From: Phycisphaerales bacterium
GTDB taxonomy: Bacteria; Planctomycetota; Phycisphaerae; Phycisphaerales; SM1A02
DNA: 64,000 nt
Direction: 5' to 3'
Assembly (NCBI GenBank): GCA_009691705.1
Contig: SIAR01000005.1
Coordinates: 1-64,000 of the forward strand
The position numbers were made by a program, and so were the translations under genes. The notes beneath the pieces are model-generated. The model was not told where the DNA came from. It did not search any database and saw only the letters and a list, made by a program, of their open reading frames with translations. Below are positions 60,472-62,813 of the stretch, piece after piece. Each line of letters begins with the position of its first letter. Position 1 is the stretch's first letter.

Positions 60472-60579
60472 GGAGGACGGTCGGGTCCGCTGGGCGGACG
60501 GCTCGTGAACCTGGTCAGGGCTTGACGGCAGCAGCCATAAGCGTCGTCGCCCGTGCCATTGGCTACCTGGCCGTCCTCC
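60472..60579 (+). ncRNA. ffs: signal recognition particle RNA (bacterial small type)
   Basis: The ends GGAGGACGG and CCGTCCTCC pair to close a long hairpin. The conserved core reads GAACCTGGTCAGG...GGCAGCAGCCATAAGCG, i.e. the GUCAGG and GCAGCCA signatures that bind Ffh, with a TTGA-type tip. The usual GGAA tip is replaced. A short GTCCGC/GCGGAC hairpin is in the upper arm. It lies directly upstream of dnaX, a common position for SRP RNA. Ends are from pairing. Confidence 0.9.
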
Positions 60580-60595: not shown

Positions 60596-61858
60596 ATGAC
60601 GACCAAAGCAACATCTAAAACGCGCGCAAGCGAAACGACGCCCGCATCCACCACGAGCGCTGCAACGCCGCTGGCCACAAGTTCGGACGGGAACTTGTTC
60701 GCGGCAGAAGCGCTGAATGCGCCCTACCAGGTCTTCGCGCGCCGCTATCGATCGCGTTCATTCGCTGAACTCATCGGGCAAGATTCGATCGCCAACACTT
60801 TGCGCAGCGCAATCGCGATGGGGCGAACGGCACACGCCTATCTCTTCTGCGGCACGCGGGGGGTGGGAAAGACCTCGATGGCGCGCATTTTCGCCCGTGC
60901 CCTCAACGCCGTGGACTCTCTTGGGGAGCGCGACGCGATCGCTCAGTCGATCATGCGCGGCGAAGATCTCGATGTCGTTGAAATCGACGGAGCGAGCAAT
61001 CGCGGCGTCGACGATGCGCGCGATCTCATTGCCGGGGCTGGAATGGCTCCCGCGCGCAGTCCATACAAGATTTACATCATTGACGAAGTGCACATGCTCA
61101 CCCAGCCGGCCTTCAACGCGCTGCTCAAGACGATGGAAGAACCTCCCGCGCATGTGAAGTTCATTCTCTGTACGACCGAACCGCACAAAGTTCCCGCGAC
61201 CATTCAGAGTCGCTGCCAGCGATTCGATTTTCGATCGATTCCAACCACGCTGATCGCCGACCACTTGCGCAGTGTGCTCGCCGGCGAGAAAGTCAGCGCG
61301 GACGAAGCGGTCATCTTGCAAGTTGCTCGACTCGCCAACGGTTCGATGCGGGATGGACTCAGCCTGCTCGATCGACTCGTCTCGGCGTCACCGGGTCATG
61401 TCTCAGTGGCACTTGCGCGTGAAGTGTTGGGATTGCCCGACGAAGAGTTACTTGAGTCGCTTGTCGCGGCGATCGCACAAGGCGATCCTCCGGCAGGTCT
61501 TGAGGCAGCTGCGAAGTTGCTCGAGCAGGGGATGTCGCCCGACCATGCCCTCGACACCATCGCAGCGCGATTGCGCGATGCACTGCTGATTCGCACCTGT
61601 GGCGCGCAGAGCGCGATGGTCGATCTTCCGCTTGAGGCACGCGAGCGACTCGCAGAACACGCCAAGCATCTCGATCCACCAGTGCTGGTGCACCTCATCA
61701 CGCTGTGCGACGGGGCCGTACGAAACATTCGTGGTTCATCGGTGCCGCGGGCGCTATTCGACGCGGTCATCGCTCGATTGTGCATGGCGGAGCACTTCGT
61801 TGCAGCGGCGACACTGCTCGCGGCACCATCCGACGCGCCAACTGTAAAAAAAAAGTAG
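60596..61858 (+). CDS. dnaX: DNA polymerase III subunit gamma (dnaX zero-frame product)
   Basis: 420 aa clamp-loader ATPase. After a ~40-residue disordered N-terminus come FARRYRSRSFAELIGQ, Walker A GTRGVGKT (86-93), DEVH (163-166), NALLKTMEEPP and sensor SRCQRFDF. The zinc-finger cysteines of typical DnaX (CxxC module after the P-loop) are absent: the segment RALNAVDSLGERDAIAQ has none. The zero frame ends in VKKK at the A9 run (stop TAG 61856-61858). Frameshifting would extend it to tau (see next entries). Confidence 0.95.
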   Translation: MTTKATSKTRASETTPASTTSAATPLATSSDGNLFAAEALNAPYQVFARRYRSRSFAELIGQDSIANTLRSAIAMGRTAHAYLFCGTRGVGKTSMARIFARALNAVDSLGERDAIAQSIMRGEDLDVVEIDGASNRGVDDARDLIAGAGMAPARSPYKIYIIDEVHMLTQPAFNALLKTMEEPPAHVKFILCTTEPHKVPATIQSRCQRFDFRSIPTTLIADHLRSVLAGEKVSADEAVILQVARLANGSMRDGLSLLDRLVSASPGHVSVALAREVLGLPDEELLESLVAAIAQGDPPAGLEAAAKLLEQGMSPDHALDTIAARLRDALLIRTCGAQSAMVDLPLEARERLAEHAKHLDPPVLVHLITLCDGAVRNIRGSSVPRALFDAVIARLCMAEHFVAAATLLAAPSDAPTVKKK

Positions 61859-61878
61859 ATGACTCACCGCGGGCGAGT
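61846..61878 (+). promoter_or_regulatory. A9 slippery run with downstream hairpin, dnaX frameshift site
   Basis: Nine A (61846-61854) precede the zero-frame stop. From 61862 a stem ACTC-A-CC / GG-C-GAGT with a GCG loop can form, one A/C mismatch, 7 nt after the run. Such spacing suits a -1 ribosomal frameshift stimulator; A9 is also the type of run that causes polymerase slippage (as in Thermus dnaX). Shift by -1 (or loss/gain of A with the same result) joins the downstream DnaX-like tail. Confidence 0.75.
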
Positions 61879-62172
61879 GTTCCCATTGCGCCACCACCCA
61901 TTGCGCCACCACCCATTGCGCCACCACCCATTGCGCCACCACCCATTGCGCCACCACCCATTGCGCCACCACCCATTGCGCCACCACCCATTGCTGCGCA
62001 ACCTGTGCGGACAACTTCGACCCAGGATGCCGACGCGATTCGGCGCCATCCACTCGTGATTGAAGCGGCGAGAATTCTCGACGCTGCCATCGCGCGGGTG
62101 ACGCCGCGCACGCTGCCCACACCCACGCCAGCTGATGAACTGCAAAATCCGCAAGTTGAGGAGTCGGCGTGA
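61855..62172 (+). CDS. dnaX: dnaX tau-specific extension in the -1 frame
   Basis: This -1-frame stretch has no start of its own. Fused after K419/K420 of the zero frame it gives a predicted ~525-aa tau. It begins VDDSPRASV, runs through seven PIAPP repeats as a hinge, and ends with HPLVIEAARILDAAIARVTPR, resembling the short conserved C-terminal segment of other DnaX proteins, then an acidic tail. Its stop (62170-62172) shares a base with the recR ATG, so the reading frame is preserved by coupling. If the slip did not occur, this tail would be lost. Confidence 0.75.
   Translation, partial: VDDSPRASVPIAPPPIAPPPIAPPPIAPPPIAPPPIAPPPIAPPPIAAQPVRTTSTQDADAIRRHPLVIEAARILDAAIARVTPRTLPTPTPADELQNPQVEESA
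61882..61994 (+). repeat. seven perfect 15-bp tandem repeats in dnaX tail
   Basis: The unit CCCATTGCGCCACCA occurs seven times without mismatch (61882-61986), plus 8 bases of an eighth. In the -1 frame each encodes PIAPP. Perfect identity suggests recent expansion by slippage, and copy number may vary. Direct units without spacers exclude CRISPR. Confidence 0.95.
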
Positions 62173-62813
62173 TGGCGCGCGAGTCGAACCAACGTGGTGC
62201 CTATCCCGAGAGCGTGAACCGCTTGATTCAAGCCTTCTCAACGCTTCCTGGGATCGGTGGACGCACCGCCCAGCGACTTGCATTCTGGGTCTTGAAGTCG
62301 TCGAGCGAGGAGGCGCTTGCGCTCGCGGATGCGATCACGAGCGTGAAGCAATCGGTGCGCCACTGCCCAGTCTGTTGGAATCCAGCCGATAGTTCGCCCT
62401 GTCACATCTGCGCCGATGAGAGTCGCGACGGGTCGATCGTGATGGTCGTTGAGCAACCCAAAGACCTAATCAATCTCGAACAAACAGGACGCTACCGCGG
62501 GCTCTACCACGTCCTGATGGGACGACTCGATCCACTCGATGGAGTCGGCCCAGAGAGCATCACGGCAGCAGATCTTCTGGCGCGGGTGAATGATGCGAGT
62601 CGCAACGCGCGTGGCGTCGAAGTGCGAGAGATAGTGCTGGCGTTGAATCCTGATCTCGAGGGTGATTCAACGGGTCTGTATCTCGCTGAGATTCTCAAAG
62701 CGCAAGCAGTCAAGGTCACCCGACTCGCCCGCGGGTTGCCAAGTGGATCGCAGATCGAGTTCGCTAACCGCGCCGCACTCGCCGACGCGATTTCTCTGCG
62801 GCAACCATTTTGA
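62172..62813 (+). CDS. recR: recombination protein RecR
   Basis: 213 aa. RecR works with RecO/RecF to load RecA on gapped DNA. An HhH motif (STLPGIGGRTAQRLAFW), a zinc finger C66-x2-C69...C78-x2-C81 (CPVCWNPADSSPCHIC), and a Toprim domain with VVEQPKDL, YHVLMGRLDPLDGVGPES and EIVLALNPDLEGDSTGLYL. GTG 62169 and ATG 62172 are both possible starts; the ATG shares a base with the dnaX -1 frame stop. dnaX-recR order is common in bacteria. Confidence 0.96.
   Translation: MARESNQRGAYPESVNRLIQAFSTLPGIGGRTAQRLAFWVLKSSSEEALALADAITSVKQSVRHCPVCWNPADSSPCHICADESRDGSIVMVVEQPKDLINLEQTGRYRGLYHVLMGRLDPLDGVGPESITAADLLARVNDASRNARGVEVREIVLALNPDLEGDSTGLYLAEILKAQAVKVTRLARGLPSGSQIEFANRAALADAISLRQPF

Follow-up and report, generated by a model that had tools for sequence, protein, structure and literature searches.

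A probable transcriptional-slippage switch between gamma and tau at an A9 run in dnaX of a Phycisphaerales bacterium, and two classes of dnaX slip site among its relatives

In a Phycisphaerales bacterium, dnaX, the gene for the clamp loader of DNA replication, contains a run of nine As (A9), and slippage there, mainly during transcription, probably yields both gamma and tau, as judged by sequence comparison with relatives. The gene lies near the end of the window, the 64,000-nucleotide stretch that was analysed (positions 1 to 64,000 of contig SIAR01000005.1, assembly GCA_009691705.1). The unslipped mRNA would be read in the zero frame to a stop right after the A9 run, giving gamma. By adding one A (A10) or dropping two (A7), RNA polymerase would lead translation into the -1 frame, and the slipped mRNA would give tau, with a proline-rich linker and a conserved C-terminal block. 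In third-frame mRNAs (other numbers of As), translation would end at 61860, again with a gamma-like product. Production of both proteins and a mainly transcriptional slip are inferred from the sequences; by analogy with other bacteria, tau is presumably needed. The serious rival is slippage of the ribosome on these letters, and both routes could add up.

The features of the locus are listed in Table 1. The zero-frame product of dnaX matched the Pfam models DNA_pol3_delta2, DNAX_ATPase_lid and DNA_pol3_gamma3, and the NCBIfam model TIGR02397 with 368.5 bits. Its last codons, GTA AAA AAA AAG TAG, spanned the A9 run, and a sequence-only reading of this DNA had correctly placed the stop there (VKKK, then TAG at 61856-61858). 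The same reading had described a -1 frame with seven PIAPP units and a DnaX-like end, stopping on the recR start. This was also borne out: the -1 frame was open from the A9 run to the TGA at 62170-62172, on the recR ATG at 62172. Taken alone, the tau tail had no match to any Pfam or NCBIfam model. An automatic annotation would stop DnaX at the run in such genomes and would lose tau.

Table 1. Features of the dnaX locus in the window.
Feature	Position	Strand	Match or remark
Small bacterial SRP RNA, directly 5' of dnaX	60479-60575	+	Rfam RF00169, 48.4 bits
dnaX zero frame, gamma form, 420 aa, ends VKKK*	60596..61858	+	AAA+ ATPase core and domain III
A9 slippery run, phase 2 of zero frame	61846..61854	+	
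A_AAA_AAG heptamer inside A9 run, in zero frame	61849-61855	+	as in E. coli
Zero-frame stop TAG, abutting A9 run	61856..61858	+	
+1-frame stop TGA, 5 nt past A9	61860..61862	+	shuts third frame
Predicted tau tail, -1 frame, 108 aa from run plus TGA	61846..62172	+	tail profile, E 1.1e-8
Seven exact 15-bp PIAPP-encoding units, tau linker	61882..61986	+	
Conserved DnaX C-terminal block RRHPLVIEAARILDAAIARVTPR within tau tail	62041..62109	+	
recR, ATG overlapping tau stop (TGATG)	62172..62813	+	RecR TIGR00615, 210.8 bits

No ybaB/ebfC-like gene, a common neighbour in other bacteria, was present between dnaX and recR (61859-62172). Because the recR ATG overlaps the end of tau, ribosomes ending tau may couple to recR; those ending gamma would halt about 310 nt before the recR start. 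The assembly of the window (G000) consisted of 1,985,919 bases in 46 contigs and was 93% complete. Only three A or T runs of at least nine were present in the whole 1.99-Mb assembly, the dnaX A9 included. Read from the letters by eye, neither of the other two lay in a gene: one was an A10 run adjoining a terminator-like hairpin, and the other was a T9 run just 5' of a nusA-like frame (L255 166-174, G000 contig C3).

A search of relatives found DnaX in 60 of 61, and in 155 of 181 genomes of the family at a stricter cut-off. The loci tabulated numbered 168, from 144 family and 24 sister-family genomes; 11 of the 155 matched family genomes were left out because the match had no listed place, was partial or fell at a contig end. 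Four of the 168 (G001, G015, G161 and G200) ended before the site and were unreadable. Of the 164 readable genomes of the family and sister families, 160 had a slip site at this position in the gene, and the other four (G033, G163, G166 and G168) lacked any recognised site closely followed by a stop. Runs of As stood shortly past domain III in 153 of the 168 loci (A10 in 90, A9 in 21 and A7 in 42), and an in-frame G_GGA_AAA stood there in 7 further loci. The sequence-only reading had proposed an alignment of dnaX and the tail across relatives; the rarity of such runs in the assembly and the recurrence of the site in relatives mark the run as more than a chance feature.

The split seen in the window was common to three other members of its genus: G005 (A10 followed by TAG), G007 (A10, G, TAG) and G018 (A10, G, TAA). 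In the 12 other genus members with a readable run, tau was encoded in the template frame. The tails of 16 genus members aligned from KKK onward, whichever frame held them. In a 25-codon block of the tail compared in the three pairs among G000, G005 and G007, there were 18, 7 and 45 differences at codon positions 1, 2 and 3 of the -1 frame, with 36 synonymous and 16 nonsynonymous codons. This pattern indicates that the -1-frame tail is under selection. With the split shared and the tail conserved with a third-position bias in the -1 frame, the earlier claim that the A9 run is a programmed switch between gamma and tau was supported.

A sequencing or assembly error, or a pseudogene, would mean that the true run is one A longer and that dnaX is a single frame. 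Homopolymers are error-prone and tau lies in a single frame in most relatives (125 of 163 scored rows). However, G005, G007 and G018 keep the frame relation with different letters and both frames are conserved; since the same split recurs in three genomes of the genus, a one-base sequencing error, named beforehand as a way to overturn the switch, is very unlikely. Single-frame relatives had been named as a second such way. They do exist, in those 125 rows, yet they keep the slip site, and their presence is therefore best taken as a flip of orientation, which leaves the switch unrefuted.

Phase variation, in which slippage during replication would alter the run length between cells and toggle gamma alone against tau, would agree with the variation of run length and frame register between species. 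But the register was stable in G000, G005 and G007 over substantial divergence. Moreover, tau is thought essential in E. coli, and the off state should therefore be lethal without slippage in expression; we regard phase variation as highly improbable. It is harder still to credit that the tail is translated separately, from a start of its own or by reinitiation. The -1 open reading frame as listed does have a GTG at 61705, ahead of the run; but the ATG at 61859, just past the stop, belongs to the zero frame and not to that of the tail, and 125 of 163 scored rows have core and homologous tail as one in-frame fusion.

The tau tail was much shorter in the genus of the window (108 aa from the run) than in the other genera of the family, where about 100 more residues stood ahead of the same C-terminal block (L027 compared). 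In G001 (contig C15) and G015 (contig C95), the contigs (L012 and L013) broke just before the dnaX run, possibly because of linker repeats or heterogeneity of the run. Among 80 named contigs, A9 or A10 runs with nearby stops were also found in other planctomycetes, among them Aporhodopirellula, Gemmata and Schlesneria, and an A8 run was found in L038. In two Opitutaceae of another phylum (L075 and L079), the run was A10, the zero frame closed 4 nt on and the -1 frame was long, which is the reversed orientation of the window.

The sites were divided into two classes, A9/A10 runs and heptamers (A7 or G_GGA_AAA), which were drawn after the table of the relatives' sites had been viewed. Run lengths in the 167 tree rows were bimodal (90 A10, 20 A9 and 42 A7), and neither an A8 run nor a run longer than 10 was found among these rows, as if A8 suited neither mechanism. 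The phases 0, 1 and 2 of the 110 A9/A10 rows were 36, 46 and 28, and all 42 A7 rows, from 11 genera, were in phase 2, the phase of X_XXY_YYZ. Since any run of nine includes one of the heptamers A_AAA_AAA and A_AAA_AAG in the proper register, freedom of phase does not by itself decide against ribosomes.

The classes also differed in the stops behind the site. Of 107 A9/A10 genomes, 91 had both off-frames shut within 30 nt, where codon shuffles predicted 8.7; at control positions 45 nt and 90 nt further on, the counts were 5 of 107 (6.1 expected) and 1 of 105 (6.3 expected). Among the A7 genomes, the count was 4 of 40 (0.8 expected). G186 and G131 were left out of the 30-nt count, and G153 was too short for both off-frame analyses. 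Where the run was A9/A10 and tau was in the template (98 genomes, 39 genera), the off-frames closed at medians of 9 and 8 nt, where codon shuffles gave 95 and 70 nt. Where the run was A7 and tau was in -1 (21 genomes), the frame needed for -1 shifting shut at 15 nt against 243 nt in shuffles, and the third frame at 196 nt against 133 nt; where tau was in frame (20 genomes, including the misassigned G186), the values were 5 against 88 nt and 82 against 152 nt. In A7 genomes, the only frame closed early is the one that -1 shifting needs. The orientation of the window (A9/A10 with tau in -1; 9 genomes, 6 genera) showed the same trend as the other A9/A10 genomes, weakly (KS p 0.078 and 0.0057).

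Stimulators were compared with identical sites counted once. The 50 nt starting 2 nt past heptamer sites were structured (genus mean z -2.18, p 1.5e-4, 13 genera), and those past A9/A10 sites showed no significant excess (genus mean z -0.21, p 0.14, 45 genera). With a 70-nt fold, A9/A10 sites were slightly more structured than expected (z -0.43, p 0.0042) and heptamers had z -1.63. Shine-Dalgarno-like words were present at 34 of 47 distinct heptamer sites and at 18 of 109 A9/A10 sites. Both features were positioned in the heptamer class: the structure had z near 0 at most other offsets, with an exception at -150 nt (z -0.32, p 0.03), and the fraction with such words, 0.72 at its place, was 0.2 or less further upstream; in the A9/A10 class the fraction was steady at about 0.17-0.24 near the site. 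Heptamer loci were richer in G+C (0.667 vs 0.606), for which shuffles and offsets control only partly.

The A9/A10 class, with its early closure of both off-frames and without significant extra structure in the next 50 nt, looks like the Thermus-type signature of transcriptional slippage. The A7 and GGGAAAA heptamers, in frame, with one off-frame shut, a structure and a Shine-Dalgarno-like motif, carry the signature of ribosomal frameshifting, to which this class is assigned. By its length, its phase and its off-frame stops, the run of the window is of the A9/A10 class, in a reversed form: its template encodes gamma, and slippage would make tau.

The window was also judged on the ribosomal route, by which a programmed -1 shift of the E. 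coli style on A_AAA_AAG (61849-61855) would give tau and the zero frame would give gamma. The exact E. coli heptamer lies in frame with a stop directly behind it, and 49 tree rows of the same order hold clear sites of this kind (A7 or G_GGA_AAA) with structure and Shine-Dalgarno-like words. Against this, A_AAA_AAG occurred in 0 of these 49 rows, which held A_AAA_AAA or G_GGA_AAA instead, and the +1 frame of the window is also shut at once, which would be superfluous for ribosomal -1 shifting. The hairpin proposed 7 nt past the run did not hold up: the fold of the sequence after the run was not stronger than in its dinucleotide shuffles (z +0.23, +0.45 and -0.47 for 46, 76 and 136 nt), its first predicted pair stood at 15 nt, and the cross-genome fold comparison gave no significant hairpin in the window (z +0.6 and +0.4). 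No listed Shine-Dalgarno-like word was present in the 14 nt ending 4 nt before the run. The suggested ribosomal stimulator was therefore abandoned, the class of the run also looking transcriptional.

The lysine tRNAs pointed the same way. ARAGORN found tRNA-Lys(CUU) in the genome of the window, and tRNA-Lys(UUU), though present in 10 of 10 relatives searched, did not turn up among the 39 tRNAs (a few untyped) of this incomplete assembly. A tRNA-Lys(CUU) pattern occurred in 151 of 181 family genomes; a reversed control pattern also matched often, and therefore only the tRNA-Lys(CUU) of the window's own genome was counted as confirmed. By an argument taken from one review (PMC5009743), tRNA-Lys(CUU) is expected to weaken slippage on AAG, and the review ties the state of two lysine tRNAs in Thermus to slippage, not to ribosomal shifting. 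A programmed ribosomal shift in the window is considered the less likely route. Of the earlier account of the mechanism, the slip at the A9 run was supported and its ribosomal stimulator was not; transcriptional slippage, named there only as an alternative, fits better.

A quick tree of 167 DnaX cores was constructed with IQ-TREE (LG+G4, SH-aLRT only); G011 was too short and was left out. Among the 163 rows scored for orientation, tau was in the template in 125 and in -1 in 38, and the orientation changed at least 13 times on the tree, 9 of the changes being forced by well-supported branches. For the 159 rows scored for class (110 A9/A10, 49 heptamer), 8 changes were needed, 4 of them forced by such branches; the direction of changes is not readable from such counts. 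G000, G005 and G007 formed one well-supported clade, and G018 lay elsewhere in the genus. In G186, the zero frame was shut 15 nt past the run and near-identical relatives had tau in -1; it was scored likewise, which gave the 13 changes (14 with tau in the template). For G189 and G137 (no profile match, contig ends), the orientation was taken from the nearest relatives.

Two tails found in the +1 frame were not accepted as a third arrangement, and both genomes were scored by judgement as having tau in the template: that of G051 was read as a core indel about 90 nt upstream of the run, and that of G131 was taken as a weak match close to the end of its contig, up to which the zero frame stayed open.

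It is likely from these counts that, within one planctomycete order, there were repeated moves between RNA polymerase slippage (A9/A10) and ribosomal frameshifting (A7, G_GGA_AAA) and repeated swaps of the template-encoded product, with the split point kept. If this is true, the order is a natural experiment on the replacement of one recoding mechanism by another. Close relatives here differ in signature and in orientation, so the exchange of mechanism without loss of gamma or tau can be studied. The textbook example of one pair of proteins made by ribosomal frameshifting in one bacterium and by transcriptional slippage in another is dnaX. In the open-licence literature searched, nothing was found on dnaX of planctomycetes, and no published account was found of both mechanisms and both orientations interleaved in one bacterial order.

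The E. coli dnaX shares with the window an in-frame A_AAA_AAG and two products with a common N-terminal part. However, the window is without the Shine-Dalgarno-like stimulator and without a significant hairpin, and E. coli shifts to make gamma, whereas the shifted product of the window would be tau. The mxiE gene of Shigella flexneri, as described in PMC1088944, is like the window in that transcriptional slippage yields a longer product from two overlapping ORFs; unlike the window, it has a run of Us and is an unrelated activator gene.

Two-ORF dnaX genes with poly-A runs were described in 12 genera, with slippage suggested (Antonov et al. 2013, PMC3711429); nine had A10 and one each had A9, A8 and A7. 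Like the window, they have a zero-frame gamma, a -1 tail and 7-10 As, and slippage is required for tau. The organisms are others as far as described there, and the 12 genera may include a planctomycete. The window has the gamma stop at the run, the -1 tail and an arrangement conserved in relatives; since such genes were published in 2013, its locus falls within an already known arrangement.

The dnaX of Thermus thermophilus slips at an A9 run (Larsen et al. 2000, as described in PMC1088944 and PMC5009743). By these descriptions, both genes have an A9 run near the gene end, with the non-tau frames closing nearby; in the window the run has at least nine As, and both non-tau frames are shut early (TAG at 61856, TGA at 61860). 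Two lysine tRNAs, as in Thermus (PMC5009743), are represented by CUU in the window's genome and UUU in its relatives. The Thermus template, however, encodes tau and slippage gives gamma (PMC1088944, PMC5009743), whereas the template frame of the window encodes gamma, and the slippage predicted there would give tau. The dnaX of the window would thus work like that of Thermus but is arranged otherwise.
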